Shown in pieces: positions 35,197 through 53,452 of a stretch of DNA of 64,000 bases. The stretch is from positions 124,001-188,000 of the forward strand of contig JAJFIR010000031.1 in NCBI GenBank assembly GCA_021774795.1, written 5' to 3'. The notes under the pieces were generated by a model. That model was given only the letters and a program-made list of their open reading frames with translations. It was not told the origin of the DNA and did no database searches. Made by a program: the position numbers and the translations under genes. The stretch is from Emcibacteraceae bacterium. Lineage in GTDB: Bacteria; Pseudomonadota; Alphaproteobacteria; Sphingomonadales; Emcibacteraceae. The first letter of the stretch is position 1, and each line of letters begins with the position of its first letter.

Positions 35197-35253
35197 TTAA
35201 TTTCCGTTAAAATTACCTATTTACAATATATTATCATTTTTTTTACTTTTCCA

Positions 35254-35279
35254 GGAATAAAATACAGTCTTGTGACGTT
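35254..35279 (+). promoter_or_regulatory. Candidate ECF promoter GGAAT-17-CGTT
   Basis: GGAAT at 35254-35258, 17-bp spacer, CGTT at 35276-35279. This is one base from the GGAAC-N16/17-CGTT consensus of alphaproteobacterial EcfG, and similar elements are used by other ECF sigmas. It lies 158 bp upstream of the repeat-protein gene, implying a long 5' leader. Inferred only. Confidence 0.35.
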
Positions 35280-35436
35280 ATCTATGGGAGAGCGAAATTG
35301 CGTTTTATAATAAATTAACGGAAACACAGCCGTTAGCTTATTCGTAAATTGAGTTTTAACTTTAATATCTATGTATTTAGTTCACCTTTAACTTCAGGGA
35401 TTGTGCTAAATCATACAGCAATAAGAAGGAAGTAAA

Positions 35437-36102
35437 ATGCGAATTATATCCACATTGGTAATTGTGACCATCGGTTTTCTGAGCATGATAATTTTTAGCT
35501 CTGCTGCTACAGCGCAAAGCGTTAGCGAAGATGCACGAGAAGCTACAGAAAACGAAGTTGAACTTCACAGAGGTGGTACTGAAACAGAAGCTGAACACGC
35601 AGCGCGTGAAGCCGAAGACGATGCTTCCGATGATTCACGTGACGTAACAAGAGCTGGTGAAGCCGCTAAGGATGCAAGAGAAGACGCACGTGAAGCTGCT
35701 AAGGATGCGAGAGAAGACGCACGTGAAGCCGCTAAAGATGCAAGAGAAGACGCACGTGAAGCCGCTAAGGATGCGAGAGAAGACGCACGTGAAGCCGCTA
35801 AAGATGCAAGAGAAGACGCACTAGAGGCTGCCCATGAGGCCGCCGAAGAAGCAGATGAGATTGCCCGTGAAGCCGTTGAAGAGGCTGAGGAAGCCGCTCA
35901 GGAAGCAGCTGAAGAAGCGGAAGAGATTGCCCGTGAAGCTGCTGAGGAGGCTGAGGAAGCCGCTCGGGAAGCTGCTGAAGAAGCGGAAGAGATTGCACGA
36001 GAAGCTGCTGAAGAGGCTGAAGAAGCTGCTCAGGAAGCAGCGAAGGAAGCGGAAGAAGCCGCACGCGAAGCTTCAAAAGAAGCGGTATCTGGGGGGGATT
36101 AA
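35437..36102 (+). CDS. Secreted Ala/Glu/Arg-rich coiled-coil repeat protein
   Basis: 221 residues with a clear signal peptide (1-27, ...SSAATAQS). From residue 75 there are five copies of an 11-residue unit close to EAAKDAREDAR, then about eight units of EAAEEAEEIAR/EAAEEAEEAAQ type. The 11-residue (hendecad) period predicts a straight, right-handed coiled coil with alternating acidic and basic faces. No Cys, no aromatic residues, no enzyme motif. The ribosome site AGGAAG precedes the ATG. Composition matches the stalk of the nearby subtilase (31818-33530) except that Arg/Asp are added, so pairing of the two helices or a shared periplasm-spanning role is plausible. Not assignable to a known family by eye. 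Confidence 0.8.
   Translation: MRIISTLVIVTIGFLSMIIFSSAATAQSVSEDAREATENEVELHRGGTETEAEHAAREAEDDASDDSRDVTRAGEAAKDAREDAREAAKDAREDAREAAKDAREDAREAAKDAREDAREAAKDAREDALEAAHEAAEEADEIAREAVEEAEEAAQEAAEEAEEIAREAAEEAEEAAREAAEEAEEIAREAAEEAEEAAQEAAKEAEEAAREASKEAVSGGD
35659..35823 (+). repeat. Five tandem 33-bp repeats inside the coiled-coil gene
   Basis: The units GAAGCCGCTAAGGATGCAAG... begin at 35659, 35692, 35725, 35758 and 35791, nearly identical at DNA level (changes such as AAG/AAA and GCA/GCG are mostly silent). Each keeps the reading frame, so copy number could change by slippage or recombination without breaking the protein. Confidence 0.9.
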
Positions 36103-36187
36103 TATATTCTTATAATAAGGATGGTATGATTACAAAAAACTGTCCAATAACATAATTTAGATATATTAATGTACAAAGGGTTAATTT

Positions 36188-37111
36188 ATGCTGCCAAAAA
36201 AAATATTTACTACAATTACGCTTATTACAATGACTTTAATGGTCAAGGCCGGGGCCGTTGCCCAAACTAAAGGGGATGATCCTTTTTCCTTAAGTCTCAA
36301 AGTAGGTGCGGAATATGACGATAATATTACTGTTGAAAGCGTCGATCTAACAAGCCGGAGAGGCGACGAGTCAGCTTTGTTAGGTGGTGCTGTTGGTTAT
36401 AAGTTAATCAATAATAACAATTCAACCCTGAAGGTCGGGTATAGTTTTTCGCAAAGCCTGCACTTTGAGCTAGCAGATTTCGATTTGCAAATTCATGGCG
36501 CAAACTTGACAACCAGTACTAAAGTCAACGATGTCACGATTGGTGTTTCATATTTTTACAACAATATCAGATTGGGTAGCAATCCATTTCTTGACATGCA
36601 TATTGTTAACCCAAATTTTAACACACTTATCGGTAATAAAATATTGCTAATAGGCGGCTATGAATACCAAAAGCAAAAATTCAAACAGGCTATTCTTTTT
36701 GATCGTAACGCCGGACGTCATAGCGGGAATGCCAGACTCTATTTTCTTTTGGGTAAAGGTCGTACGATCAATGTTGGATATAAAATAAGCCGCCATAATA
36801 CAGTTGCCTCCGAACTAATATATTGGGCTCATACAATTGATGCTGGATTTAAATTACCGATCGATGTTATCGAGGGCGCAAATATCAGGGGGCGTTATCG
36901 CTACAGACAGCGGGATTACTCAAATATCAATCCAAGACTAGGTGAAAATCGAGCTGACAAGAGACATTCTGTTCGATTAAGTGTTGAGACACCAATTGTT
37001 AATTCGATCACCGGAAACCTGGAGTACGAATATATTAATTCAAAATCTAACCTTGCCAGTCAAAATTATAATAGCCATGTGATTAGCTATCAGCTAGAAT
37101 GGAAATACTAA
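36188..37111 (+). CDS. Outer-membrane beta-barrel protein
   Basis: 307 residues, signal peptide 1-26 (...GAVAQT). The rest is alternating amphipathic strands: LSLKVGAEYDDNITVE, STLKVGYSFSQSLHF, KVNDVTIGVSYFYNN, RTINVGYKISRH, ANIRGRYRYRQRDYS, and a final VISYQLEWKY with the aromatic terminal residue of Bam-assembled barrels. About 12-14 strands. VGAEYDDNIT resembles the start of the barrel in DUF560/Slam-like and other uncharacterised barrels, but there is no TPR domain here. It is 85 bp after the repeat-protein gene; probably in the same sigma-controlled unit. Function unknown: porin, anchor or export channel are possible. Confidence 0.75.
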   Translation: MLPKKIFTTITLITMTLMVKAGAVAQTKGDDPFSLSLKVGAEYDDNITVESVDLTSRRGDESALLGGAVGYKLINNNNSTLKVGYSFSQSLHFELADFDLQIHGANLTTSTKVNDVTIGVSYFYNNIRLGSNPFLDMHIVNPNFNTLIGNKILLIGGYEYQKQKFKQAILFDRNAGRHSGNARLYFLLGKGRTINVGYKISRHNTVASELIYWAHTIDAGFKLPIDVIEGANIRGRYRYRQRDYSNINPRLGENRADKRHSVRLSVETPIVNSITGNLEYEYINSKSNLASQNYNSHVISYQLEWKY

Positions 37112-37443: not shown

Positions 37444-38442
37444 TTAATTTCTTGCTTGAGACTGAGCCTGTTCATATAAGGCTTTAATGTCGTCATCGTT
37501 TGGAGAAATCTTCAAGGCGTTTTGGTAGGCATTTGCAGAATTTTTCCACTCCCCTAGAACACCATATGAGCGCGCCAGGTTCAACCATCCATCGAGATCG
37601 TCGGGATTTTCTTCTAATTTTACTGCGAGCCCATCGACCATACTGCGAATAAATGAGCTCCTGTCTTGGGTGGACATAGCATTGACTTCCGCTACCTGCT
37701 CAATGGTCGGCTGCTTCATCGAATTTGTGTTTAAATTGTTTCCGTCAATCGATCTTAATCGTTCTTCTACTTGTGCAACCCAAGGGGCACCAGTCGGGGC
37801 AATTTTTAATAATGAATTCAAACGAACGGCGGCTAATTCCGCATTACCGGTTTGAATTTCATATTGTGCCAAATCGTATCCTGCTCTTGGGTTGGCGGGT
37901 TCCGTCTCGATTGCCTTTCGAAAAAATTCAGCGGCTTTATCCGGTACTTTTCCGCCGCCAATTTCTGTAAGCGTTTCACCGTAAGAAAGAAGAAGATCAA
38001 TATTGTCAGGGTTTTCATTTATCCGCTCCTCAAATATTGATACAGCGCGAGCTGGCTGATTTAATGCAACATATGAGCGTCCAAGTAATATCCAACCACT
38101 AATATCATTCGGATTTTGTTTCAACTTTGCTTCCAATCTTGATGTAACTGAACTCATAGACATCTCGTTTTGGTCTGGTTTAATGGATGCATTTAATGGA
38201 CCTGACCATTTGAGATCACCTGGATCGGGGAATTCAAATGACATCGCGGCTACGGTTTCTTCTTCAACATTCTCTGAAAAATAATAGTTTAAACTTATTG
38301 GCAAAATTAGAACAGTTACAACAAGAGATAAAACGAATGCACGAGTTTTTTTACTGTGAGCCATTCGCGGCCATAAAGAGTAAAGAATTACAGCGGCTCC
38401 AATGATTGAGCTGGTAATAAGTAATAGCCAATTCATATTCAA
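37444..38442 (-). CDS. ccmI: CcmI/CycH-like cytochrome c biogenesis TPR protein
   Basis: 332 residues. Two N-terminal membrane helices (about 3-22 and 33-53) with a short loop, then a periplasmic domain with TPR pairs: DISGWILLGRSYVALNQPARAVSIFE, NIDLLLSYGETLTEIGG, PANPRAGYDLAQYEIQTGN and LDGWLNLARSYGVLGEWKNSANAYQNAL. This is the CcmI plan, in which the TPR part holds the apocytochrome C-terminus for haem ligation by CcmF/CcmH. The start overlaps the end of ccmG by 4 bp (ATGA). No ccmF or ccmH follows, so the other Ccm genes are elsewhere. A dedicated maturation pair next to multihaem cytochrome genes suggests local specialisation. Confidence 0.8.
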   Translation of the reverse strand: MNMNWLLLITSSIIGAAVILYSLWPRMAHSKKTRAFVLSLVVTVLILPISLNYYFSENVEEETVAAMSFEFPDPGDLKWSGPLNASIKPDQNEMSMSSVTSRLEAKLKQNPNDISGWILLGRSYVALNQPARAVSIFEERINENPDNIDLLLSYGETLTEIGGGKVPDKAAEFFRKAIETEPANPRAGYDLAQYEIQTGNAELAAVRLNSLLKIAPTGAPWVAQVEERLRSIDGNNLNTNSMKQPTIEQVAEVNAMSTQDRSSFIRSMVDGLAVKLEENPDDLDGWLNLARSYGVLGEWKNSANAYQNALKISPNDDDIKALYEQAQSQARN

Positions 38443-38954
38443 TTCCTTTTCGATAAGGGTAGGATATCATGATCTATATCTTCCCGCTTTAAGCGACCCG
38501 ATTTATGGTAGATAACCGAGCCATTTTCATTAAGAACAAAAGTTTGTGGAATGCTGGATATTTCCCATACAGGGCCAAGTTCGCCAACCTGATCTAGTGC
38601 AGTCAGAAGATAAGGATTACCTGTATCAAGCAGAAACTTTTTGGCCAACTCCTCCTTGTCTTGAAAAGCTATTCCTAACATATCAATATCTTTATCGGCC
38701 AACTCTAACAAAAATGGATGTTCCATTTTGCACGGTCCGCACCAAGACGCAAAAAAATTAACCACCCTTATATTTTGGTTCTCTATATCACTATTATTGA
38801 GGGTAATTCCCTCTATATCTAACGAGGGTAAATTAAACTCCGGGAGTCGCACAAAAGAAGCGGCTAATTCACTTTTTTGATTCTCGGTATTTGTGATCCA
38901 ATAAAGCTGAAAAATGAAAATTATTCCGGGTATCAATAAAAGATATTGTCTCAT
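38439..38954 (-). CDS. ccmG: CcmG/DsbE-like thiol:disulfide oxidoreductase
   Basis: 171 residues. A single N-terminal membrane anchor (about 4-20), then a thioredoxin fold in the periplasm with active site NFFASWCGPCKMEHP (WCGPC, followed by the EHP typical of CcmG/DsbE), GIAFQDKEELAKKFL, and cis-Pro in ISSIPQTFVLNENG. CcmG keeps the CXXCH cysteines of apocytochromes reduced before haem attachment. WCGPC rather than the usual WCxPC with V/P is still within the family. First gene of a two-gene unit with ccmI, divergent (290 bp) from the multihaem redox operon, whose products need about 40 such sites prepared. Confidence 0.88.
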   Translation of the reverse strand: MRQYLLLIPGIIFIFQLYWITNTENQKSELAASFVRLPEFNLPSLDIEGITLNNSDIENQNIRVVNFFASWCGPCKMEHPFLLELADKDIDMLGIAFQDKEELAKKFLLDTGNPYLLTALDQVGELGPVWEISSIPQTFVLNENGSVIYHKSGRLKREDIDHDILPLSKRN

Positions 38955-39244: not shown

Positions 39245-40558
39245 ATGACAGAATTATACCAAGAAAACTGGCTCATATATGGCCTTCTAATATTTACCTT
39301 TTTTGCCATTTATTACCTGAAAAAAAGTAATCAGGAACGTAAAAGTCGCGTGCGGAAATCAGAAGAAATTGATGCCGGTTTGATCGAGCCTCCTTCGCTT
39401 CATCCAGTCATTGATCCAAACAAATGTCTTGGCTGTTCTGCATGTGTAAAAGCGTGTCCCGAAGGAGGCGTTATTGGCATTTTGAATGGCAAAGCAGAAT
39501 TGATCGCTCCCACGCATTGTATTGGTCATGGCGCTTGCAAAAAAGCGTGCCCGTTTGATGCTATCGAACTTGTATTTGGTACCGAAAAACGGGGCGTAGA
39601 TATCCCCTACGTTGACAAGAATTTTGAGACGAATGTGCCGGGTATTTTTATAGCAGGTGAACTCGGTGGAATGGGTCTCATCAGAAACGCTGTTGAACAG
39701 GGTAAACAAGCACTAAATTATATTATTGATAAGCATATTGGTCAGAAAATTGATGGCGTTTTAGATGTATTAATAGTCGGTGCTGGACCAGCAGGTTTTT
39801 CAGCTTCGTTGGCAGCATTGGAGAAGAACCTCAATTTTGTGACCCTCGAACAAGAAACTTTTGGCGGCACCGTCGCCCACTATCCACGCGGAAAAGTGGT
39901 TATGACGCAACCGGTTAAGTTACCGATTTACGGTAACGCCAATTTCAAGGAAACAACAAAAGAAAAACTTTTGGAGTTCTGGCAAGTTGTAAGAGACACA
40001 ACCAACCTTAAAATTCATTACGGGGAAAGAGTGGTAGCTGTTGAACAAGGCGATGATGTTTTTGAAATAACAACTGAGACAAAAAGCTACCAAACCAAAA
40101 GTTTGTTGTTGGCCGTTGGCCGTCGCGGAACACCACGAAAGTTGGACGTACCGGGAGAAGATCACAAGAAAGTTGTCTATAATTTGATCGATCCACTTCA
40201 ATATGCGGGTCAACATATCCTTATCGTTGGGGGCGGTGATAGTGCCCTTGAAGCAGCGGATGCAATTTCACAAGTTCAAGGAACGACAGTAAGTCTATCT
40301 TATCGGAGCGAAGCATTTGGTCGCGCCAAGCAAAAAAACCGCGAGAAAATTGACGTTGCTCAAAATGATGGGCGATTGAAATTGATGATGCCGTCCACAG
40401 TTAAAAAAATCGAGGCAGGATTTGTTACCCTTGAACAGAATGGTGACGAAATTACACTACAAAATGACGGTGTAATTATTTGTGCAGGGGGAATTTTGCC
40501 GTCGGCTTTCTTAAGAGAAGTTGGCATCGATGTCGAAACAAAATATGGGTCAGCATAG
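39245..40558 (+). CDS. Membrane-anchored ferredoxin-flavoprotein oxidoreductase
   Basis: 437 residues. Membrane helix 8-26, then two ferredoxin-type clusters: KCLGCSACVKACP (C61, C64, C67, C71) and HCIGHGACKKACP (C92, H95, C98, C102), where His takes one Cys position. Next, residues 118-156 (NVPGIFIAGELGGMGLIRNA) look like the C-terminal FAD motif of thioredoxin-reductase-like enzymes, yet they precede the N-terminal FAD motif VLIVGAGPAGFSAS (176-189); HILIVGGGDSALEAADAI (about 325) is the NAD(P) motif. So the domain order appears permuted. No CxxC disulfide, so not a TrxR. Likely passes electrons between NAD(P)H and the cluster pair at the inner face of the membrane; first gene of the operon with cytochromes b and c. 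Confidence 0.82.
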   Translation: MTELYQENWLIYGLLIFTFFAIYYLKKSNQERKSRVRKSEEIDAGLIEPPSLHPVIDPNKCLGCSACVKACPEGGVIGILNGKAELIAPTHCIGHGACKKACPFDAIELVFGTEKRGVDIPYVDKNFETNVPGIFIAGELGGMGLIRNAVEQGKQALNYIIDKHIGQKIDGVLDVLIVGAGPAGFSASLAALEKNLNFVTLEQETFGGTVAHYPRGKVVMTQPVKLPIYGNANFKETTKEKLLEFWQVVRDTTNLKIHYGERVVAVEQGDDVFEITTETKSYQTKSLLLAVGRRGTPRKLDVPGEDHKKVVYNLIDPLQYAGQHILIVGGGDSALEAADAISQVQGTTVSLSYRSEAFGRAKQKNREKIDVAQNDGRLKLMMPSTVKKIEAGFVTLEQNGDEITLQNDGVIICAGGILPSAFLREVGIDVETKYGSA

Positions 40559-42433
40559 ATGAATATTTCTTTTCGGATATATAATTTTTATTCAGGCAGC
40601 GTAACCGCCGTCTTTGTTTTGTTACTGTCTATAATTTCGGCTGAAGCGTCTATGGATGAAGCGCTTTTCGCTGCACGCAATCGGGATTTTGAACAAGCTT
40701 TTCAGCTATTCCTTGTCGAAGCAAAATCAGGAAATCCCGAAGCTAAGTACCGTGTGGGAAATATGCTTAGCGCGGGTACCGGGATTAAGAAGGATGAGAA
40801 ACTCGCTTTAGATTGGTTTCAACAAGCGGCAGATTTGGGTCATACCAAGGCAACTAAAAAATTAACTAGACTGAGGTCGGCTGTCCAGTCAATCAATAAT
40901 CCGGAGGCAAAACTATTAAAAGCATCACGCGTTGGAGACGTTGAAGTTATCGAGAATTTAATTGAGATCGGAACTGATTTAAACGCTCAAGACAAACTTG
41001 GTTCAACACCTTTAATGGAAGCGGTGCGAGAAAATCAGAATGCAGCGGTTAGTTATTTACTATCTCGGGGAGCGAATACTAATACCCGTAATAAGCTGGG
41101 TGATGCAGCCCTCTTGATTGCAGTAACATTAAATAATTTTGAAAATGTTCAATCAATTTTAAACCATAATAGTAATGTTGATGTTCAGGATAAACATAAA
41201 TCTTCCCCACTTATCTTAGCAACAAGCCGAGAGAATTTAAAGACTGTCAGATTACTGATTGAGCATAATGCTGATATATTTTTGAGAAACGATGAAGGAA
41301 GGTCGGCCTATGACATTGCCCTAAGTTCTAAAAATAAATTGCTCATTGAAATGATAAAAAAGGCTGGCGGAAAAAAACTTGCCGATCTGATTAGAATGGA
41401 AGATGAAAAACAAAAGGGTCGACTTCTATCAGCGAATGCAGATATCCCAAGTGGTTGGTCGCCTCTTATGTATGGTGCATGGCGTGGCGACATAGTAGCG
41501 GTAAAAACATCTCTCGCTTCAAACACAGATATTGAACAGCAGAATAATCTTGGAGTGACAGCACTAAGTCTTGCCGCAAGTGGCGGGCATACCGAAATCG
41601 TAGAAATGTTGCTTGCAAAAGGTGCTAATTTAAAATGTGACGCAAATGATGTTAATCCCGTTTTACTTGCAATAAAATCGGGACACAGACTTATGGTGGA
41701 TACACTAATCTCCCCACTTGTTGAAAAGGATGAATGCAAGGAATTTTTAGCAACCATGCTTAACTATTCGCTTGCTTCTGAACGGTTCTCTATTGCAGAG
41801 AAATTTATTAAACGCGGTATTAATATCAATCACGATAAATTTAAATCTCCATTAATAACAATGTCTTCTGGAATAAGTGAGGATATTGTAAGAGCATTGA
41901 TCAAGAATGGAGCTGATGTTAATGCGCAGGATGAATATGGGCAAACAGCTCTAATGATTGCATCCAGGGAAGGTAATTCTGAAGCGTTAAAAACTTTGAT
42001 AGACCTGGGTGCGGAGGTCAACCTAAAAGACGAAATGGGACGCACTTCTTTGAATCATTCAGTCGCTAAAGAACAACTATTAATAGTAAAATATCTTATC
42101 GAGAAAGGCGCGGATGCGTTGTCGTTAACCACGGAAAATAATTCGGCTCTCATGCTAGCCGCCAGAAGCGGAAATGTGTCGATTGTTAATATTCTCGCCC
42201 CTTTTGGAAACTTGGATCAAAAAAATAATGTTGGCGATACGGCACTTATTATGGCTGCACGTGGCGGTTATTTAGATGTTTCAGATGCTTTACTAAAAAA
42301 AGGAGCAAATCCCCGAATAAACAATAACAGAAAAGAAAATGCGTTGAACGTAGTCCACACGGATAACAATCAATTGTACGCGCTCATAGAAGAATACTCT
42401 TCCTCCAGGTCGTGGATAAATGACATTTTTTAA
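40559..42433 (+). CDS. Sel1/ankyrin repeat protein with signal peptide
   Basis: 624 residues. Signal peptide or anchor about 12-31 (...ISAEASM). Residues 32-100 contain Sel1-type repeats (AKYRVGNMLSAGTGIKKDEKLALDWFQQAA). From about 115 onward there are roughly a dozen ankyrin repeats with typical GxTPLMxAxRxxxxxxVxxLLxxGAxxNxxD units, e.g. LGSTPLMEAVRENQNAAVSYL and YGQTALMIASREGNSEALKTLI. No catalytic domain. The ATG directly abuts the stop of the flavoprotein (0-bp gap), so the two are translated together. Being in the same operon as periplasmic cytochromes, it probably is a periplasmic scaffold. Ankyrin proteins protect cytochrome peroxidases in some bacteria (AnkB), a possible analogy. Confidence 0.85.
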   Translation: MNISFRIYNFYSGSVTAVFVLLLSIISAEASMDEALFAARNRDFEQAFQLFLVEAKSGNPEAKYRVGNMLSAGTGIKKDEKLALDWFQQAADLGHTKATKKLTRLRSAVQSINNPEAKLLKASRVGDVEVIENLIEIGTDLNAQDKLGSTPLMEAVRENQNAAVSYLLSRGANTNTRNKLGDAALLIAVTLNNFENVQSILNHNSNVDVQDKHKSSPLILATSRENLKTVRLLIEHNADIFLRNDEGRSAYDIALSSKNKLLIEMIKKAGGKKLADLIRMEDEKQKGRLLSANADIPSGWSPLMYGAWRGDIVAVKTSLASNTDIEQQNNLGVTALSLAASGGHTEIVEMLLAKGANLKCDANDVNPVLLAIKSGHRLMVDTLISPLVEKDECKEFLATMLNYSLASERFSIAEKFIKRGININHDKFKSPLITMSSGISEDIVRALIKNGADVNAQDEYGQTALMIASREGNSEALKTLIDLGAEVNLKDEMGRTSLNHSVAKEQLLIVKYLIEKGADALSLTTENNSALMLAARSGNVSIVNILAPFGNLDQKNNVGDTALIMAARGGYLDVSDALLKKGANPRINNNRKENALNVVHTDNNQLYALIEEYSSSRSWINDIF

Positions 42434-42600
42434 TTATAATTGACAGGATACAGAGAAAAATCACTATAGTTAGCCAAAATATTAAGACGCAAAAAAACGG
42501 ACAGCCAGGCCAGACATTCGGCACTAAGGCTTCAGAAAAGCCGCGTTTTAAAATCAGACGGTTCTTAGGGAAAATAATTCCGTTTGTTTTTGGATCGGCT

Positions 42601-43401
42601 GTGCTTATGTCTCTATTCGTAGGCTACCGCTTGTCTGAATACGATTATTATAGTGCTGAAGACGGTGCTGGATATGCACTTGGTGTCATAGGCGGTTGTA
42701 TGATGCTGGCGTTACTTCTATACCCGCTTCGCAAGCGTGTTAGTCGGTTAAGCGTTATTGGCAATGTGAAAGTATGGTTTGGGCTACACATGATGTTTGG
42801 CATCCTCGGACCTTTGCTAATACTTTTTCATGCGAATTTCAGCCTCGGTTCTACCAACAGCAATGTCGCTCTTTTTTCAATGTTGATCGTATCGGCAAGT
42901 GGCGTTGCTGGTCGATATATCTACACAAAAATCCATCATGGCCTCTATGGGCAAAAAATTGAACTCGCCGAGTTGACCAATCGCCTGAGAAATAATCAAG
43001 AAGATTTATTTTCGCTTTTGAGGCTTAATCCACAGGCGAGAGAAGAACTTTTTCAGTTCGTTGACCATGTGCTTACACCAACAAAAGGATTAATCCACAG
43101 CAGTTTGAGGATTATGACAGTTGGTCTGAGATCACGGGTTTTAATACGAAAAATAAGAAAATCCACAATTGAACGATTAAATTCTACAAGCGTTGAAACA
43201 GATCTGACCGCGAAAGAAAAAAGGCAAATGGAAAAGGTCATTGTTCGCGAAGCCGATCATTTTTTGAACCGTACACGTAAGGTAATCGAGTTTTCATTCT
43301 ATGAGCGCATGTTTGCGCTTTGGCATGTTCTGCATTTGCCGTTATTTTTCATGTTGGTTACCGCGGCGATAATTCATGTCATCGCAGTACATTGGTATTA
43401 G
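42601..43401 (+). CDS. Cytochrome-b-like membrane protein, start uncertain
   Basis: 266 residues from GTG 42601, the first conventional start codon. The frame is open upstream to the TGA at 42421 without ATG, GTG or TTG, and the upstream codons IIPFVFGS complete the first membrane helix (IIPFVFGSAVLMSLFVGYRL), so translation probably begins further up at a rare start (e.g. ATC 42460 or ATT 42481) or the sequence has an error. Four or five helices: residues about 25-42, 58-78, 83-100 and 238-262. Candidate haem ligands: GLHMMFG, LFHANF, LWHVLHLP and IIHVIAVHWY, in a ferric-reductase/cytochrome-b561-like arrangement. A charged helical segment (110-215) faces one side. Likely quinone- or flavoprotein-to-periplasm electron carrier. 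Confidence 0.7.
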   Translation: MLMSLFVGYRLSEYDYYSAEDGAGYALGVIGGCMMLALLLYPLRKRVSRLSVIGNVKVWFGLHMMFGILGPLLILFHANFSLGSTNSNVALFSMLIVSASGVAGRYIYTKIHHGLYGQKIELAELTNRLRNNQEDLFSLLRLNPQAREELFQFVDHVLTPTKGLIHSSLRIMTVGLRSRVLIRKIRKSTIERLNSTSVETDLTAKEKRQMEKVIVREADHFLNRTRKVIEFSFYERMFALWHVLHLPLFFMLVTAAIIHVIAVHWY

Positions 43402-43408
43402 GGGGTAA

Positions 43409-44986
43409 ATGTTGAAACATAAAACACATTTTTTCGCCGCCCTGTTGATACTGCTTCTTCACAGTACATTTGCGAATGCCCAAATCATAAATCAATTGGA
43501 ATCTTTAGTGATGCCGGGACCACTATCTTCCGCGCACGCCGAATATGAAAACACGTGTACGAGTTGCCATTCTCCTCTTGATCAAACAAGGCAAGATACC
43601 TTGTGCATTGATTGCCACAAGAATGTGGGGGCGGATATTGCAGATGCGATGGGTTTTCACGGAAGAAATCCTTTGATTGCGACGTCGGAATGCAGCAGCT
43701 GCCACACGGATCATGAAGGTCGGGAGTTCGACATAATAGGTATGAACAGGGAAACTTTTGATCATACTTTTACAGACTTCCCCCTTACCGGAGCGCACCT
43801 GACTGCTCAATGTGCAGAATGCCATACAAATGGTCAAGAATTGTATCAAGCGACAAGCACCTGCATCTCTTGCCATGTTGATGATGATAGTCACAGAGGT
43901 GCGATGGGAGAAATTTGTTCAGACTGCCACACCACCGATGACTGGCAGGAGGTGAGATTTGATCACAGTCAAACCAAATTCCCCCTTCGCGGAGGTCATG
44001 TAGATATCACCTGCAATAACTGTCATGTGGATACACGCTATACTCAAACACCAACGAACTGTATCTCCTGTCACATCAATAATGACGATCATGAGGGTCG
44101 ATTTGGTACTGATTGCGCCACATGCCATACGGAAGAAAGCTGGACACCGATTGCTTTTGACCACAGTCAATATTCTGAATTTCTGCTTAAGGGAAAACAC
44201 GAAATTATCGAATGTGAAGCTTGTCATACATCTACATCACCCTCGCAAGTAGTCGCCACTGCATGTATAGATTGTCACGTGAGCATAGATATCCACCGCG
44301 GACAAAATGGCTCTGATTGCGCGACATGCCATACGGAGGCCGGCTGGAAAACCACCGATTTTAATCACAATATAGAGACCGAATTCGTACTTTCCGGAGC
44401 ACATCAAAAGGTATCGTGTTATTCTTGCCACAGGGGGGATCAACCTGCTACCGACTTTACAAGTACCCAGTGTGTAGATTGCCATATCAATGAAGACGTT
44501 CACAACACCAAGCTGGGTCAAAACTGTCAGGAATGCCATACGGAAACATTATGGACACAGGATATTACATTTGATCATGATTTTTCCTCGTTCCCGCTTG
44601 TAGGGCTTCATTCAATCACCGCTTGCGAAGATTGCCATTTAACACAGGAATTTAATGGCACCGACAAAAGTTGTTCCTCTTGTCATGTAGAGGAGGATGT
44701 TCACAAGCAAACACTAGGGGAAACATGCTCTGATTGTCATAACCCAAATGGCTGGGATTTTTGGCAATTTGACCACAATACTCAGTCCGAATTTAAATTG
44801 GATGGCAGTCACGCTGGGTTGGAATGTGCGGCCTGTCACACAACCCCGACAAGTGGACCGGTTGTTCAAGCATCGGCGTGCGTTGATTGTCACCGCAACG
44901 ACGATATTCACAATTCCCGTTTCGGCACCCAGTGTGATCGTTGCCACGTCACGGACACCTTCAAAACCATAAGGATGCAAAGATGA
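43409..44986 (+). CDS. Periplasmic multihaem cytochrome c, 21 CXXCH
   Basis: 525 residues, signal peptide 1-24 (...TFANAQ). I count 21 CXXCH sites, e.g. CTSCH, CIDCH, CSSCH, CAECH, CISCH, CSDCH, CNNCH, CATCH, CEACH, CYSCH, CVDCH, CQECH, CEDCH, CAACH, CDRCH. Modules of about 60 residues repeat with three haems each (CxSCHxxxxxHxGxxGxxCxxCHTxxxWxxxxFDHxxxxFxLxGxHxxxxCxxCH). Extra His such as FDH and GxH would give bis-His ligation, as in class III (cytochrome c3) proteins. Expected to be a long periplasmic electron wire. It lies 7 bp after the cytochrome-b gene and overlaps the next cytochrome gene by ATGA. Not MtrA-like in length or spacing. Confidence 0.92.
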   Translation: MLKHKTHFFAALLILLLHSTFANAQIINQLESLVMPGPLSSAHAEYENTCTSCHSPLDQTRQDTLCIDCHKNVGADIADAMGFHGRNPLIATSECSSCHTDHEGREFDIIGMNRETFDHTFTDFPLTGAHLTAQCAECHTNGQELYQATSTCISCHVDDDSHRGAMGEICSDCHTTDDWQEVRFDHSQTKFPLRGGHVDITCNNCHVDTRYTQTPTNCISCHINNDDHEGRFGTDCATCHTEESWTPIAFDHSQYSEFLLKGKHEIIECEACHTSTSPSQVVATACIDCHVSIDIHRGQNGSDCATCHTEAGWKTTDFNHNIETEFVLSGAHQKVSCYSCHRGDQPATDFTSTQCVDCHINEDVHNTKLGQNCQECHTETLWTQDITFDHDFSSFPLVGLHSITACEDCHLTQEFNGTDKSCSSCHVEEDVHKQTLGETCSDCHNPNGWDFWQFDHNTQSEFKLDGSHAGLECAACHTTPTSGPVVQASACVDCHRNDDIHNSRFGTQCDRCHVTDTFKTIRMQR

Positions 44987-46596
44987 CAAAGTATACAATT
45001 ATTTCCATATCATCGCTTTTGATTATCATCTTTATGGTAGCTATTTTCACGGTGCCGTCAGGACAATTCGTTGCCAACGCACAAACAGAATTTGACCATT
45101 TTAACACCGGTTTTCCACTTGAAGGGATGCATCAGACTCTTGAATGCGATAGTTGTCATATTGATGGCGTTTTCCAAGGGACACCAGAAAGATGTGTCAG
45201 TTGTCATGATCGTACAGGCAATATTGTTGCATCAAACAAACCACTTGACCACATACAGTCGTTGAGTGAGTGTGAAGATTGCCATACGACCGGTGGGTGG
45301 GAAAGTTTAATCCGGATGGATCATGGTTCTGTCTTGGGAACATGTCGAAGTTGTCATAATGGCACAATAGCAGAGGGTAAAAACCCTACTCACGTGCAAA
45401 GCTCAAATGTATGTGAGGATTGTCATATTACAACGGTCTTTACCAATGCCCGTTTTGATCACACTGGCATTCAGGGAAGTTGCGCAAGCTGTCATAATGG
45501 TACCATTGCGAGCGGCAAAGATCCGAGCCATATTCTGTCTACTGTGGTTTGCGAAGCGTGTCATACGACGACTGACTGGGAAGCTCTGCGCCGTGTTGAT
45601 CATGACGAAGTATTGGGAAGCTGCGCGAGCTGCCATAATGGGTCGGTCGCAAGCGGCAAATCCCTGAACCATATCCCGTCAACAAATACGTGCGATGAAT
45701 GCCATATTACGAATGCATGGTTGCCCGCAACCTTCACACATGATGCTGTAACAGGAAATTGTGTTGCATGTCATAATGAGACTATTGTCACAGGAAAAAA
45801 TCCGACACATATATTAACAACCAACATATGTGAAGACTGCCACACAAGAGTTGCTTGGTCTCCAGCCACTACTGTTGACCATGCTCAAGTACTTGGAAGT
45901 TGTGCCACTTGTCATAATGGATCAATTGCTACGGGGAAAAACCCGACACATATATTAACAACCAATGTATGTGAAGATTGCCACGTCACAAATGACTGGG
46001 AAAATGTTCGCGTTGAACACACCCAGGTACTTGGAAACTGCCAAAGTTGCCACAATGGCACTATTGCTACCGGTAAAGATTTGGGGCACATCAATACTAT
46101 TGGTGACTGTGTCAATTGTCATATAACCTTAAATTGGACAACCGTTAATTTTGATCATGATTTTGTCAGCGGTTCTTGCTCAAGCTGCCATAATGGGACC
46201 GATGCAAGGGGCAAAGAAGCAGGGCATTTTATAACTTCTTTAGAATGTGATGATTGCCATACAACGAATAACTGGATTTTTTCAAATTATTCACACATTA
46301 CTGGAAATTACCCCGATCATGGAATAGGTCGCCTTGATTGTAATGAGTGCCATACCTCAAATAACCAAGTAATTCCGTGGCCATTTGCTGCCTATCAACC
46401 TGATTGTGCTGCTTGTCATGCAAATAATTACAACCCTGGTCCGCACCGTAAGCATGAAAACCCAGATGTAAATTATTCAGTCAGCGAGCTTCGTGATTGT
46501 GCCGGTGCTTGTCATACTTACACCGACAGTACATTGACGGTTATTAAAGAATTTCGAAATAATGAGCACAGACCGACAGATGGTGGCTTCAATTGA
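44983..46596 (+). CDS. Second multihaem cytochrome c, 19 CXXCH plus CX3CH
   Basis: 537 residues from ATG 44983 (ATGA overlap with the previous stop; AAGGAT precedes it; the 14 extra upstream residues are unsupported). Sec signal or anchor 1-33. I count 19 CXXCH plus CAGACH (CX3CH) near residue 509. The repeated unit is about 37 residues with two haems: CASCHNGTIASGK, DPSHI, CEACHTTTDW, VDH. CHNG-GK-H-C..CH modules occur in large extracellular or surface multihaem cytochromes. The final 60 residues are His-rich (GPHRKHENP) and less regular. Role: probable partner of the 21-haem protein, delivering electrons toward the outer membrane protein encoded next. Confidence 0.92.
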   Translation: MTKYTIISISSLLIIIFMVAIFTVPSGQFVANAQTEFDHFNTGFPLEGMHQTLECDSCHIDGVFQGTPERCVSCHDRTGNIVASNKPLDHIQSLSECEDCHTTGGWESLIRMDHGSVLGTCRSCHNGTIAEGKNPTHVQSSNVCEDCHITTVFTNARFDHTGIQGSCASCHNGTIASGKDPSHILSTVVCEACHTTTDWEALRRVDHDEVLGSCASCHNGSVASGKSLNHIPSTNTCDECHITNAWLPATFTHDAVTGNCVACHNETIVTGKNPTHILTTNICEDCHTRVAWSPATTVDHAQVLGSCATCHNGSIATGKNPTHILTTNVCEDCHVTNDWENVRVEHTQVLGNCQSCHNGTIATGKDLGHINTIGDCVNCHITLNWTTVNFDHDFVSGSCSSCHNGTDARGKEAGHFITSLECDDCHTTNNWIFSNYSHITGNYPDHGIGRLDCNECHTSNNQVIPWPFAAYQPDCAACHANNYNPGPHRKHENPDVNYSVSELRDCAGACHTYTDSTLTVIKEFRNNEHRPTDGGFN

Positions 46597-46604
46597 TAAG
46601 TTTT

Positions 46605-48701
46605 ATGAAAGTCACATATGCTAAGTTCTTGAGGACTCTGGCACTAACGGCTCTAGGCGCATTAGTATCTTTAATACCATTTACTGCCAAAGCAAGGGTT
46701 GTTGAGACCGTGGATATTGAGGAAACAGTCGAAAGTATGGAAATTAGAGTTAATTTTGCATTTCCGATACAATATATAGGCCATGTTCCGGGTTCAAACG
46801 GCGATAATATTCGCATTCAATTCAGGATTAACTCTCAGAACCTTCTCAATAATCAAGATATAAAGGTGCTTTCAAGCAGGTCCGATTTGACATGGGATCA
46901 TTCTAAAGCATTTCCACTTCAGGAAATGTTCTGGGACGGGGGGGATATATCAAGTCCGTTACTTACATTACTTTTCAACCGACATGTCGATTTTGAGGTT
47001 GAAGGTTCAAATGATTTGCGGTCAGTACTTATCCGCGTTCAGTACACCAACGCAATAACCGGAAAAGAAGAAGAAGGAAATAATAAATATTCTGGTTTGT
47101 TGCGGGAAGCTATGGCGGCATTTCGGGGTAATGATTATCAAACTGCAATCCGGCTTCTGACATCTATCGAAGAGTCCTCTAGTGGAGATGTGCATAAACA
47201 GGCGTTAGAATATCTTGGTCTTACTCGACAAAGAAACAGGCAGCTTGCACATGCGAAAGCCGAATATGAAAAATTCCTAAAACTTTATCCCGATGGTCCG
47301 GATGCCCAAAGGGTGCAGCAAAGACTTTCCGCTTTAACAACAGCCGATCAAAAAGCTCAACCAAGGCTGCGGCAAGCGCGAACAGGTGATGAAGCCGAAG
47401 ACAAAAAGTGGGAAACTTCTGTCTACGGTAGCCTATCCCAATTTTATTTTCGTGATGAAACAAATCCAAGTGGTTCCGATAAAAGGGTTAATGTTTCAAA
47501 TCTTCACACTGACGCAAATATAAACATTCGCGCGAGAAGCCAAGAGAGTGAAATCAGATTCCAATTTGTTGGAAGCCATCAAGCTAATTTTATTGAAGGA
47601 AGAGAAAATAGAAAACGGCTTAGTAGACTATTTATTGATTATCAAGACCATACTTTAGGTGCAGGTATAAGAATTGGTCGCCAATCAAAAAGCCAAGGCG
47701 GCGTATTAGGTAGATTTGATGGTGTTGATGTCGGATATGAAATAACGCCGGATATTAAACTCAACGCAGTTTATGGTTTTCCCGTGCAATCTTCGCGTCA
47801 GACAAATGTAAATTCTGATCGAAAATTTTACGGTGCCAGCCTGGACTTTGGTAATATTTCTGAAAAATGGGATTTTACAACTTATTTTATTGAACAAAAG
47901 AATGTAAACCTTCTAGACAGACGAGCTGTTGGTGGGGAGGCACGATATTTCAAAGATGGTAAATCTCTGTTTGCGATGGTCGATTATGATTTGCATTTTA
48001 AGGAATTAAATTTGGTCATGATCAACAGCAATTGGATTTTATCTGAGAAGACAACATTATATGCGAATTTTGACTACCGTAAAAGTCCACTCCTTACATC
48101 AACAAATGCGATACAAGGACAAGGTGTTGAAAACTTATCGGACTTATTTACTCTGTATACAGACGACGAAATTTTTCTGATTGCAGCTGAAAGAACAGCG
48201 TCAATAAAAACAGCTACTTTCGGTTTAAACAAGGCAATAAGTGATAAATATAGAGTATCTGTAGACCTGACTGCTACGGATTTAACAGGAACTGTATCCT
48301 CGGCAGGGGTAATTGGTTTTCCTGGTACAGGGACCGAATATTACACGTCGGTTCAGCTTTTAGGAACCAACTTACTTATGGACAAGGATAGCCATATATT
48401 TGGCATTCGTTATAATGATAGAGACCGTGACCGGAACTATACATTCTATCTAAATAGCCGTTTTAGAGTGGGAGAAAAATTCCGTATAAATCCCCGATTA
48501 AGGGTAGATTATAGATCAGGAAAAATAACGGATACTAGACGGTTGATCATCCGCCCCACCGTCAAAATGGAATATAGAATTGCAAAATGGTTCTACTTTG
48601 AATTTGAGGGTGGTTTTGAATGGCGTGACGAAACTTTCTCGGACATAAATCAGACTTCTACCGGAAATTATATCTATACTGGTTATCGATCTATTTTCTA
48701 G
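46605..48701 (+). CDS. TPR and outer-membrane-barrel protein of the cytochrome operon
   Basis: 698 residues from ATG 46605 (frame opens at a TTG four codons earlier; ribosome site weak). Signal peptide about 1-30 (...FTAKAR). Residues 35-155 are beta-rich, AMIN-like (IEETVESMEIRVNF). Residues 165-265 contain TPR helices (YSGLLREAMAAFRGNDYQTAIRLL, ALEYLGLTRQRNRQLAHAKAEYEKFLKLYP). From about 285 to the end are amphipathic strands of an 18-22 strand barrel, e.g. TLGAGIRIGRQSKSQGGVLG, NYTFYLNSRFRVGEKF, RIAKWFYFEFEGGFEWRDE, with terminal Phe. Ending a multihaem operon, it could be the sheath that lets cytochrome cross the outer membrane (an MtrB/PioB-type job), although it lacks their sequence motifs. 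Confidence 0.75.
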   Translation: MKVTYAKFLRTLALTALGALVSLIPFTAKARVVETVDIEETVESMEIRVNFAFPIQYIGHVPGSNGDNIRIQFRINSQNLLNNQDIKVLSSRSDLTWDHSKAFPLQEMFWDGGDISSPLLTLLFNRHVDFEVEGSNDLRSVLIRVQYTNAITGKEEEGNNKYSGLLREAMAAFRGNDYQTAIRLLTSIEESSSGDVHKQALEYLGLTRQRNRQLAHAKAEYEKFLKLYPDGPDAQRVQQRLSALTTADQKAQPRLRQARTGDEAEDKKWETSVYGSLSQFYFRDETNPSGSDKRVNVSNLHTDANINIRARSQESEIRFQFVGSHQANFIEGRENRKRLSRLFIDYQDHTLGAGIRIGRQSKSQGGVLGRFDGVDVGYEITPDIKLNAVYGFPVQSSRQTNVNSDRKFYGASLDFGNISEKWDFTTYFIEQKNVNLLDRRAVGGEARYFKDGKSLFAMVDYDLHFKELNLVMINSNWILSEKTTLYANFDYRKSPLLTSTNAIQGQGVENLSDLFTLYTDDEIFLIAAERTASIKTATFGLNKAISDKYRVSVDLTATDLTGTVSSAGVIGFPGTGTEYYTSVQLLGTNLLMDKDSHIFGIRYNDRDRDRNYTFYLNSRFRVGEKFRINPRLRVDYRSGKITDTRRLIIRPTVKMEYRIAKWFYFEFEGGFEWRDETFSDINQTSTGNYIYTGYRSIF

Positions 48702-50226: not shown

Positions 50227-50988
50227 TTACATCTCCAAATTGGCCTGCCAAACACCATCAACTTTTCTAAATCCATTTAATGCGAGCGCGTTACGTACTG
50301 CTGCATTACTTTCAAGAATATTCTGTAGTTTAACAGCAATAATCCCCCTATTCACTTCATTTGACGCGGCACCCTGATACGTTATTTCCATGTCGCTGGA
50401 TGATCCCCGCATGGCAATCCGTATCTCTTCGTTCACACACCGTCCATGTCCTTGTAGAATCGGCAACTCTAACGTCGCACCTGACAAACTCAATTTCGAA
50501 AGATTTGCTTCAACATCCATAGTACCTTCACTGCAAATACCCTTCCGGTTGACAACAATACTGTCCGAATTAATTGATATCTGAGCTCGAAGCCTCAACC
50601 CATTCTGTTTAGCGTATATTTCTGTGTCACCTTCAAGCAAACTCAGCTCCATCAATTCACCTTCGGATAGTTTAATTTCACCCGAAAAGCGACTTTCTTC
50701 ATTTTCAAGATGAAATCCAACTTCGAATTCACCGAAAATCAATGGTACTTTGTGCAAGCTGATTTCTACCTTCGACCAAACTTGACCCGCAAAAATGGCA
50801 TTTATAAATTGCCCGCTCCACACATTTCCAATTTGATGTTCAAAATTAAATCCATATTGATGCATCCGATCACCAAGAAGTCTTATCGGAAGCTGCAATA
50901 TTAATGCCGATAAAAAAATTAGTGCAAATATACAGGATAGCCATTTTGCAGATATAATCATTTGAGATGGAATAAAATATGATCTCAC
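50227..50988 (-). CDS. gspN: Type II secretion system protein N
   Basis: 253 residues starting at GTG 50988, overlapping the gspM stop (GTGA). One N-terminal membrane helix (about 15-34), then a periplasmic beta-rich domain: LLGDRMHQYGFNFEHQIGNVWSGQFINA near the start is the T2SSN signature (the GxxW(S/N)G pattern), and GRCVNEEIRIAMRG has the Cys partner of CSEGTMDVEA. GspN is an accessory inner-membrane component related to LptC/AsmA-like folds with an unclear role. Its position directly after gspM is the common order. Confidence 0.85.
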   Translation of the reverse strand: MRSYFIPSQMIISAKWLSCIFALIFLSALILQLPIRLLGDRMHQYGFNFEHQIGNVWSGQFINAIFAGQVWSKVEISLHKVPLIFGEFEVGFHLENEESRFSGEIKLSEGELMELSLLEGDTEIYAKQNGLRLRAQISINSDSIVVNRKGICSEGTMDVEANLSKLSLSGATLELPILQGHGRCVNEEIRIAMRGSSSDMEITYQGAASNEVNRGIIAVKLQNILESNAAVRNALALNGFRKVDGVWQANLEM

Positions 50989-51464
50989 TGCTTATTTCCT
51001 TTAAACTCGAATTGACCCCGCAAAGTTTCTTCACCGTTATTTTTTTGTAAGGATACTTTTTGGGCCTGCTGAGCGTGCTCGTCATTAAGCAATATCAGCC
51101 AGTTCATAATTTCTGTGGTTCTGGAATTATCAATCCAAAATGAAACCGAACCATCGGAAGCAGGTTGAATTCGCGAAATCGCGATACCCACTTTTCGAGA
51201 GGTAGTCGTCGCGGCCTCCCGTATTGACGTTGTATCTGCGCCGGCAGAACCAGCTTCCTGCGATGATGTTGTTGATAAAGCCGATAACTCCAGAACTTTG
51301 TCATAACGATTTTTTTCCTCCTCCATAGCTCGCAAACTATCTATCTTGCGATCAGAAATCGGTTTGATGAGTGCGATAAAAAGCAAAAACATAAAAACAA
51401 AAACTCCACAAATTATAATTAGCAGCTGTTCTCGCGATGTCAGATTGTTCCAAATTTTGATCAT
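50985..51464 (-). CDS. gspM: Type II secretion system protein M
   Basis: 159 residues. WNNLTSREQLLIIICGVFVFMFLLFIALIKPI is the short cytoplasmic start and single membrane helix of GspM, followed by a coiled segment (RKIDSLRAMEEEKNRYDKVLEL) and a ferredoxin-like periplasmic domain (AISRIQPASDGSVSFWI, IMNWLILLNDEHAQQAQKVSLQ). It pairs with GspL in the inner-membrane platform. Overlaps both gspL and gspN by 4 bp. Length matches the family. Confidence 0.88.
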   Translation of the reverse strand: MIKIWNNLTSREQLLIIICGVFVFMFLLFIALIKPISDRKIDSLRAMEEEKNRYDKVLELSALSTTSSQEAGSAGADTTSIREAATTTSRKVGIAISRIQPASDGSVSFWIDNSRTTEIMNWLILLNDEHAQQAQKVSLQKNNGEETLRGQFEFKGNKQ

Positions 51465-52468
51465 TGGGCCTCCCCAGTAATCGTGTAACTGCTGAATATT
51501 ACCAGCCCCTCTTGTGTGCTACCACCCTGAACCACATTGTAGCCTGCATTAGCTATCTCATTTTCAAAAGAACTAGTCTGAGAAAAATTTGATGTTGAAA
51601 TTGTAGTGTTTAATGTGGGTGCCTGTCCTGTTCTATCATAGTTCAAATTTACGAGTACTGCGCCAGTTGTGTCTCCTATTGCTTTAAAAATATTATTTGC
51701 AAAGGATAGGAAAGCCGTGCGGGTGCCGGTTCCACTGTCCTGGGCCAATGCCCGCATCTGTGCCTCCACATTCACTACGCGTTTGACTTCCGGGTGTGTA
51801 TTTTTAAAAATCTGCAATGATGCTTCTGCATAACGAATGCGTAAATTGTCATTCTGCGATATCGTGATGCCAGCGTGAATAAGCCAGACAGTTAGCGCCG
51901 CAAGCAAAATCACTCCCAGTCGAATTGCAGAACGCAGATAGAGAAACAATGAAGGTCGAGGATTGTATTTTCCTGTAGCGAGCCCGCACCCTTCTGGTGG
52001 CGTTTTAGCTAGCTTGCCGGGATTAGTCGGTTTGTCTCCGATAATATCGTTAAGTATGCTTGCGCTTACGGTAAATCCTACACCATTGGCGCGTCGCACT
52101 ATGCTTCGACTATCACTTTGATAAACGGAAATTCCATCGTCCGGAGTAGCCAGAAAAGAGTAATCTGGCCAGATTGCTTTTAAAGTTTTACCCGTTTTTG
52201 CGGCCTTTTCCTGCGCCTTTATCATCCAGCTATGATCGCAAACGGCCACAATAAAATGACCATCTGCACTTTTTTCCATAACCGCAAAATGGGTATTTTC
52301 AATATCCCCTGCAACAAAATCGCTGAGAATACCGGGAATGATTTTTTCAAGTTTAGCGTTCGACAGATCGGGGAGTTCAATCCTGAAATAGCTGACCACT
52401 TCACCAGCCAAAATGGCAATCACACCATCATCTTCGGCGCATTCGATGATTTGAATTTCTTGCATCAT
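51461..52468 (-). CDS. gspL: Type II secretion system protein L
   Basis: 335 residues. N-terminal actin-like cytoplasmic domain (1-190), which binds the GspE ATPase: LSNAKLEKIIPGILSDFVAGDIENTHFAV matches the GspL pattern. A membrane helix is at about 197-216 (LGVILLAALTVWLIHAG). The periplasmic ferredoxin-like domain ends with the FENEIANAGYNVVQGGSTQ strand-helix. Role: transmits ATPase motion to the pseudopilus assembly platform. Slightly shorter than the E. coli/Vibrio protein (about 390). Confidence 0.86.
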   Translation of the reverse strand: MMQEIQIIECAEDDGVIAILAGEVVSYFRIELPDLSNAKLEKIIPGILSDFVAGDIENTHFAVMEKSADGHFIVAVCDHSWMIKAQEKAAKTGKTLKAIWPDYSFLATPDDGISVYQSDSRSIVRRANGVGFTVSASILNDIIGDKPTNPGKLAKTPPEGCGLATGKYNPRPSLFLYLRSAIRLGVILLAALTVWLIHAGITISQNDNLRIRYAEASLQIFKNTHPEVKRVVNVEAQMRALAQDSGTGTRTAFLSFANNIFKAIGDTTGAVLVNLNYDRTGQAPTLNTTISTSNFSQTSSFENEIANAGYNVVQGGSTQEGLVIFSSYTITGEAQ

Positions 52469-52471
52469 TGA

Positions 52472-53452
52472 CTAGTCACCATATTTCCGATTAATCAAGG
52501 TATAGGTGCTATCATTGTTTAATGATATCAAGCTTTCCAAATTCACGTGTATATCTGCAAGTATTACTTCAACAAATATTTTATATCGCTTTGGTGAAAG
52601 ATCAAACTGTCTGCGTACTTCGCTTTTAATATCTTTATCCGCCAAAAATTTATGATCCCAAAAGCGTGCTACATGATCGTAACCTTGTGATGGGCGATCT
52701 TTGATGATCGAATTTATATTTTGTAACGAAAGAGGTAAACCCAGGACAGAGTGAAGCAATATTGTTTGCTCAGGTGTCAACGAATTTAGATTTAGAACCG
52801 TTTCCATGGAAACGGCGTCTACACACGTAATCGGTAATAATGCTTCAATAAGCTCTGGCGTAAATCCACTGACCAAACGAAGTTCATCGATATCGCCAAT
52901 GGGCGCGTTCGCTGCACGGTATGGTATTTCAAGCTGTGAATAGTAAAAATCTTCAGATCCCAGCGGTAAGGGGCGGCTATCGGTATCCTGCCAATCAACT
53001 AAATTTGCAGCAAGCAACAATGCCTGCCGGTCACCAATTCCAATATCTATCAACAATTGAACAAATTGATCGTGGCCAGTTTGATTGATTTCAAATCCTC
53101 GAGCGTTATTAGCCTTCACAAGGGAGGCAAGATTAAAACAGTTCGTATATTCCTGCAATTTTCCCGAGATCATTCCGCCCTCGATCGGAAAACTAACCAA
53201 CCGATTTTCGACCGAACCTGTCAAAAATGAAGCAAGTTGTACCTGTTCCGCCAGTTTAATCGCCTGTTCCGAGCCGACCATCTCAGCGGCTAGCGCATAT
53301 TCACGCGCCTGATGCGATGCAATTTTTACCGTACTGTTTCTTGTATAATATCCAAGTAAATCAAATGTTGCTACCAAGGCGGCACTCATAACGGACACAA
53401 GCAACAAAACAGAAATAAGTGCCGCGCCATCTTCATTTCGTAAATGATTCAT
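52472..53452 (-). CDS. gspK: Type II secretion pseudopilin K
   Basis: 326 residues. Prepilin leader MNHLRNEDGAALISVLLLVSVMS: cleavage after Gly9, and GspK typically lacks the Glu5 found in other pseudopilins, as here (A at that place). The large alpha-helical insert domain is visible (LLIDIGIGDRQALLLAANLVDWQDTDSRPLP, INDIDELRLVSGF-like segment GDIDELRLVSGFT). GspK caps the pseudopilus tip with GspI and GspJ. It overlaps gspJ by 4 bp. Confidence 0.9.
   Translation of the reverse strand: MNHLRNEDGAALISVLLLVSVMSAALVATFDLLGYYTRNSTVKIASHQAREYALAAEMVGSEQAIKLAEQVQLASFLTGSVENRLVSFPIEGGMISGKLQEYTNCFNLASLVKANNARGFEINQTGHDQFVQLLIDIGIGDRQALLLAANLVDWQDTDSRPLPLGSEDFYYSQLEIPYRAANAPIGDIDELRLVSGFTPELIEALLPITCVDAVSMETVLNLNSLTPEQTILLHSVLGLPLSLQNINSIIKDRPSQGYDHVARFWDHKFLADKDIKSEVRRQFDLSPKRYKIFVEVILADIHVNLESLISLNNDSTYTLINRKYGD

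Follow-up and report, generated by a model that had tools for sequence, protein, structure and literature searches.

A conserved ferredoxin-flavoprotein gene beside a PCC3-type porin-cytochrome cluster in an Emcibacteraceae bacterium

Porin-cytochrome clusters of the type named PCC3 by He et al. in 2017 (PMC5566968), and mentioned in later papers, comprise an inner-membrane protein of ca. 300 residues (five helices, with WX3HX13H on transmembrane helices 3 and 5 and SGXXG on helix 4), a periplasmic cytochrome with many haems (median of 21), a second, variable cytochrome that the authors place outside the cell (median of 34 haems), and a barrel encoded beside the cytochromes. In their model, the inner-membrane protein exchanges electrons with quinone. 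Four components are also given in the available part of a paper on the Gallionellaceae (PMC10734462), two examples from Sideroxydans lithotrophicus ES-1 (Slit_0867-0870 and Slit_1446-1449) appear in the accessible portion of PMC8788666, and the function of PCC3 is called untested in the excerpted text of PMC12442390. The clusters are widespread and are seen as candidate iron oxidases, with the quinone pool as the assumed partner on the inside. Here, we analyzed a PCC3-type locus with additional genes in a stretch of 64,000 nucleotides (the window) from an Emcibacteraceae bacterium (assembly GCA_021774795.1, contig JAJFIR010000031.1, positions 124,001 to 188,000).

The open reading frames of the window place six genes, A to F, in tight order on the + strand, as the original prediction had described. 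The gaps read from the sequence are 0 bp between A (39245..40558) and B (40559..42433), 7 bp between C (42439..43401, with an uncertain, non-ATG start) and D (43409..44986), -4 bp between D and E (44983..46596), and 8 bp between E and F (46605..48701), provided that F begins at the ATG at 46605. Judged by motifs, haem counts, and conserved gene order, C to F are the PCC3 cluster known since 2017 (PMC5566968). C, the inner-membrane protein, is predicted to be a five-helix, di-haem b-type protein with WX3HX13H at W113/H117/H131 and W295/H299/H313 and SGXXG at 154-158. D, predicted to be periplasmic, carries 21 CXXCH motifs; E, presumably located outside, is the second long cytochrome, with 19 CXXCH and one CX3CH; and F is a predicted 22-strand barrel beside them. 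The haem motifs thus add up to 41 (21 in D and 20 in E), as counted originally. The suggestion of a possibly undescribed system for extracellular electrons is rejected for C to F, since they match PCC3, and the broader claim of a trans-envelope electron conduit is well supported by homology and anatomy.

PCC3 as published has four genes, whereas in the window A and B lie ahead of these on the same strand and a ccmG-ccmI pair lies upstream in divergent orientation. We consider it probable that A, B, and ccmG-ccmI belong with C to F and that a split path resembling NADPH oxidase (NOX), from NAD(P)H over FAD, Fe-S, and two haems b, feeds a wire across the periplasm, with electrons flowing outward. 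In a first relatives search, 6 further genomes have all six genes in this order, and a seventh has A to E, where the contig ends; because of this recurrence across relatives, and of more distant versions, the order is not a product of chance. A scan of named genomes with gene C yielded 246 relatives, 80 of which were kept for locus counts (Sideroxydans was not among them). Profiles built here detected A around 75 of these 80 loci, a cytochrome around 77, B around 53, F around 50, and ccmI around 38. Where at least 6 kb was available upstream of C (60 loci), A was found in 57, B in 40, and ccmI in 32; where at least 9 kb was available downstream (40 loci), F was found in 37, the misses being L118, L138, and L145. 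Homologous loci lacking the barrel or the flavoprotein, which had been named as evidence that would speak against a conduit, were therefore mostly not seen. A and C are oriented divergently in 62 loci and in the same direction in 13, the latter being the arrangement of the window. Of the five loci without A, two (L120 and L129) are short of sequence on the upstream side.

Larger genome samples gave the same association. Among 398 genomes of a phylum sample, full-length A, C, and a long F match occurred in the same six (G000, G411, G471, G659, G763, and G765), with E-values of at most 2.9e-202 for A, 1.3e-98 for C, and 1.5e-53 for F; additional matches were partial (A in G445 without the ferredoxin part, and F in G473 and G629 with the TPR part only). 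In samples of the class, A was present in 3 of 337 genomes (G000, G259, and G295) and a strong C in 4 of 385, namely, the same three plus G411, which has an A match in the phylum sample. These patterns strongly support the original proposal of a flavoprotein as the feeder of the conduit. The main text of He et al. (PMC5566968) contains none of the terms "ferredoxin," "flavo," "pyridine," or "FAD," with figure 6 and the tables possibly showing neighbours, and "ankyrin" does not occur in the available part of PMC10734462. We found no published description of A or B in PCC3 in a search of texts, excluding supplements and figures, and A is apparently an unreported, strongly conserved PCC3 partner.

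The composition of A suggests what such a partner could do. Residues ca. 53-107 form a two-motif ferredoxin and residues ca. 172-433 a thioredoxin reductase (TrxR)-like FAD/NAD(P) domain, according to Pfam (Fer4 and Pyr_redox) and to PDB relatives, which for the second region are Bdr, TrxR, and TrxR-like ferredoxin-NADP reductases (e.g., 5ygq, 3lzw, and 6gas). Over 72 sequences (71 named full-length ones plus that of the window), the second Fe-S motif reads CxxHxxCxxxCP, with His replacing Cys in all 72, and the second Cys position of the first motif holds Cys in 59, Ser in 12, and Ala in 1. Residues of the NAD(P) site are kept (G329-D332 and R354 in 72 of 72, R360 in 71). No sequence has a CxxC in the flavin part, and none has the Bdr-type Cys at position 183 (Ala in 61, Ser in 11), which we take to be the Cys adjoining the FAD motif in GGGPCG. 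The YpdA/Bdr model TIGR04018 scored A at 157.2 bits, below its cutoff of 339.9. We therefore rejected A both as a thioredoxin reductase, for want of a redox-active CxxC, and as a YpdA/Bdr bacillithiol reductase; no known kind of thiol reductase fits it. By sequence, it resembles more closely the type-2 (TrxR-like) ferredoxin-NADP reductases, which have the same FAD/NAD(P) fold without CxxC, and differs from them by its built-in ferredoxin.

B, a protein with Sel1 and ankyrin repeats (Pfam) and a hydrophobic N-terminal segment (residues 10-28) that is probably a signal peptide, adjoins A directly in the window. Where both genes occur, they lie on the same strand in 51 of 51 loci and abut or overlap in 50, the exception being L118. 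Upstream, on the - strand and divergent from the operon as predicted, are genes for a ccmI-like TPR protein, an apocytochrome chaperone (37444..38442; Pfam TPR_CcmH_CycH, 1.2e-28), and a ccmG/DsbE-like thioredoxin (38439..38954; TIGR00385 dsbE, 1.6e-32, its 112.5 bits falling just below the cutoff of 123.15). This is a second pair, since a separate ccm operon (ccmC, ccmF, ccmG, ccmH, and ccmI) is found on contig C30 of the genome; the sole other strong ccmI match in the genome is located there (G000:C30:204341) and is 30% identical. The presence of this extra pair may point to an assembly line reserved for cytochromes of very large size.

Taken further, this would make A, B, and ccmG-ccmI a maturation module for giant cytochromes that reduces haem iron or thiols, with C to F alone as the conduit. 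The frequent linkage of ccmI, the helical-repeat character of both B and ccmI, and the TrxR-like fold of A are all in keeping with such a module. We nevertheless regard it as quite improbable, given that A has neither CxxC nor the Bdr-type Cys, that its Fe-S sites suit one-electron transfer, and that distant C-like loci without a porin also have A-like flavoproteins. Of 13 such distant loci, 8 have an A-like flavoprotein, in most cases with additional domains of the cNMP and Fe-S types, as tested in L025; L026 has a different, FNR-type reductase instead. The presence of A-like flavoproteins in these relatives strengthens the pairing of A with C.

In the related porin-less type (L024, L025, L059, L060, L062, L064, L065, and L067), a long flavoprotein is accompanied by a cytochrome b resembling C and by a cytochrome with ten haems. 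In L025, the flavoprotein has cNMP-binding, TrxR-like, and Fe-S domains and the ten-haem cytochrome an FHA-like domain; in L060, which is cut by the contig end, four haems are seen. A "Forkhead-associated protein" with 10 haem motifs is given for 27 of 87 iron oxidizers in the available part of PMC10734462.

C showed five hydrophobic segments in a hydropathy scan, and both WX3HX13H motifs and SGXXG are invariant across 12 aligned sequences, including that of the window. Its start deserves comment. The frame is open from just past the stop of B and contains no ATG, GTG, or TTG there (window 42434-42600), whereas a start at the GTG at 42601 leaves a gap of 167 bp and halves the first transmembrane segment (residues 43-61 of the frame read from 42439). 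Since the first standard start thus falls inside this segment, and since a relative of the same genus (L068) likewise lacks a standard start at the corresponding position, C likely begins at a rare codon (ATT, ATA, or ATC). Of the gaps listed in the original prediction, four stand, and that of ca. 170 bp between B and C, which depends on the GTG at 42601, is probably not real. With the 266-residue form of C, Pfam gave nothing convincing, and the ferric reductase transmembrane domain PF01794 (number as in PMC5566968) did not match at an E-value of ≤0.1; a PDB search with a profile of C returned only implausible weak matches, and no phage protein family was found for C. In two loci, none of A, B, D, E, and F accompanies C within the stretch covered: L020 (7644-8663), where C sits between the same neighbours that flank a full cluster in L017, and L023 (151-1185), where it is interrupted by a stop. 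Both could reflect decay or errors in metagenome-assembled genomes (MAGs).

The two cytochromes behave very differently. D, the first cytochrome after C, has 21 haem motifs in 57 of 76 loci, 18 in 6, 24 in 6, 27 in 3, 12 in 2 that are truncated by contig ends, and 22 and 23 in 1 each, so that the count is a multiple of three in 74. The next cytochrome, E, was called in 64 loci, of which some are likewise truncated, and there has from 5 to 59 haems. In 43 D sequences, selected for having 21 haems, the His of all 21 CXXCH motifs is invariant. Exactly 21 other His residues are conserved as well (20 of them at 100%, the remaining one at 98%), and along most of the chain their spacing repeats as 16-18, 18, and 32-33. 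Such a pattern would be expected from seven three-haem modules ligated by His throughout, and in the window D is matched by the Pfam cytochrome c7/c3 families, as is E, in which the haems are spaced by ca. 23 residues. A fixed D and a freely varying E fit a ruler that spans the periplasm and an extension that reaches outward; that D could span the periplasm was noted earlier by the Gallionellaceae authors. The original description of both cytochromes as periplasmic is doubtful, because the PCC3 authors put the second, variable one outside, and the haem counts fit that placement.

E has a Sec-type hydrophobic N terminus in the hydropathy scan, and no lipoprotein signal was recognized on it by eye, which would agree with D and E being soluble periplasmic electron stores to which F is unrelated. 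This we find very hard to credit: F follows in 37 of the 40 loci mentioned above and co-occurs with A and C, it is predicted to be a wide barrel, and E varies in haem number beside a mostly fixed D. No PDB sequence relative of D was found at 0.001, and E gave two weak matches, an MtrC (32.4 bits) and 6r2q_A (31.1 bits), which we take to be the entry for the MtrCAB complex. The DmsE/MtrA model TIGR03508 (cutoff of 192.2) scored E at 77.4 bits and D at 31.6, both below the cutoff.

F combines an N-terminal beta domain, TPR-like helices, and a barrel that AlphaFold2 models with 22 strands (mean pLDDT of 88.5, pTM of 0.59). The barrel is predicted to be wide, not too narrow or closed to hold a cytochrome. 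Pfam gave a weak TPR match only; the MtrB/PioB family, presumably so named in Pfam, was absent among the seven families matching F at an E-value of ≤0.1. A fold search with the model returned general barrels, with no MtrB among the best 50 rows, an absence that proves nothing. The original remark that no gene is MtrA-, MtrB-, or MtrC-like holds roughly, E showing only weak or subthreshold MtrA and MtrC similarity.

In the mechanism that we favour, A would sit on the cytoplasmic side, probably anchored in the membrane, and use FAD and its two unusual Fe-S sites for electron exchange with NAD(P)H. Through contact with A and D, C would move electrons across the inner membrane by two haems b in the manner of ferric reductases and NOX. 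D would span the periplasm as a 21-haem wire of fixed length, F would serve as the outer-membrane sheath or pore, and E as an outside extension of variable length. B and the extra ccmG-ccmI pair may assist in producing or holding the large cytochromes. The most likely direction is outward, with NAD(P)H as donor and an acceptor outside the cell, reversal being possible in principle.

The direction is where the published reading of PCC3 has to be weighed, in which Fe(II) or another outside donor feeds E, F, D, and C and finally the quinone pool, with A as a side branch or passing a few electrons to NAD(P). We favour outward flow for several reasons. A has domains of the NAD(P)H type; electrons from iron, if they were to reach NAD(P)H by way of C, would have to move uphill and counter to the membrane potential; and no RuBisCO match was found in the host genome, which is 99.53% complete. 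Both PCC3 clusters of ES-1 are, moreover, down-regulated on Fe(II) according to the accessible portion of PMC8788666. Together with the almost perfect tracking of C and F by A, these points make inward flow rather unlikely to us, for all that it has the model of He et al. (PMC5566968) behind it. Several observations weigh on the other side. PCC3 is common in iron oxidizers of the Gallionellaceae (PMC10734462, available part), the inner-membrane gene of PCC3 copy 2 in Sideroxydans CL21 is up in cells capable of iron oxidation (PMC12442390, excerpted text), PCC3 proteins are at most of middle abundance in ES-1 (PMC12016527), and exchange between C and quinone, as published, is compatible with our data. 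Three loci (L105, L119, and L133), with ca. 10 kb upstream each, lack A even by tblastn, so that A is not absolutely required beside C, and in the genome samples scoring was limited to the few top first-look candidates of each genome. The N terminus of A looks anchor-like by eye and was not flagged by the hydropathy scan (threshold of 1.4), the domain arrangement of F is uncertain at its pTM, and the AlphaFold2 model of D is too poor (pLDDT of 68.3, pTM of 0.30) for its length to be measured, so that D as a ruler is an interpretation.

We tentatively go one step further and raise the possibility that PCC3 is primarily a split, NOX-like NAD(P)H:extracellular-acceptor reductase and not a quinone-linked iron oxidase, the path from A through C to D and E bypassing the quinones. 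If so, a cytoplasmic NAD(P)H partner would be a general and overlooked PCC3 subunit across the Proteobacteria. In any case, A gives PCC3 a concrete cytoplasmic end, which makes direction, donor, and independence of quinones directly testable.

Within the genus, gene C was found in only 1 of 12 other genomes (G009), and the locus is therefore accessory. The host genome is 3.9 Mb, with the window on contig C25, and the closest relatives carrying the locus are MAGs labelled as Alphaproteobacteria and as Emcibacter sp. PCC3-type C loci were also seen in MAGs labelled as Omnitrophota, Nitrospinaceae, Deltaproteobacteria, and Rokuibacteriota (L075, L076, L080, L083, L113, and L145), beyond the Alpha-, Beta-, and Gammaproteobacteria range of He et al.; binning errors are possible. 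A second multihaem protein of the host genome (L169, 8528-10783, - strand, contig C49) has 751 residues and 8 CXXCH and is weakly DmsE-like.

Upstream of A in the window, no FNR- or CRP-type box was found at ≤3 mismatches, and Fur-like matches had at least 6. The ccm pair is preceded by a stretch on the + strand (33834-37111) that encodes an ECF-like sigma factor and possibly an anti-sigma factor, along with a repeat protein of low complexity (Ala/Glu/Arg) and an outer-membrane protein of the SlipAM type (Pfam, PF04575). Just downstream of F, on the - strand (50227-54054), are genes resembling parts of type II secretion, which we take to be GspN to GspJ. Type II secretion exports outer-membrane cytochromes in Shewanella, and by analogy these genes could export E.

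Compared with described systems, the window resembles MtrCAB, MtoAB, and PioAB in combining a barrel with a multihaem wire through the outer membrane. It differs from them in that F lacks the MtrB/PioB Pfam match, the MtrA/DmsE scores are under the cutoff, and the haems are far more numerous; membership was rejected on the Pfam (F) and TIGR03508 (E and D) models. PCC4 and the porin-less clusters of He et al. (PMC5566968) have a five-helix protein with HX13H pairs, like C, and most of these clusters of cytochrome and inner-membrane protein include an extra redox protein. Unlike the window, PCC4 has three periplasmic cytochromes, none outside, and an inner-membrane protein said to belong to another family. 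PCC3 itself shares with C to F the inner-membrane motifs, the 21-haem cytochrome, the second long cytochrome, the porin, and the gene order, with a median of 34 haems in the outside cytochrome versus 20 in E. Its inner-membrane protein was likened by He et al. (PMC5566968) to the NADPH oxidase/ferric reductase domain, in which two haems b are held by HX13H pairs on two helices, as would be the case in C. In contrast to that domain, C has no corresponding Pfam match, the flavin and NAD(P)H part is encoded separately, in a protein that has Fe-S motifs and resembles TrxR in fold, and the acceptor would be a haem wire.

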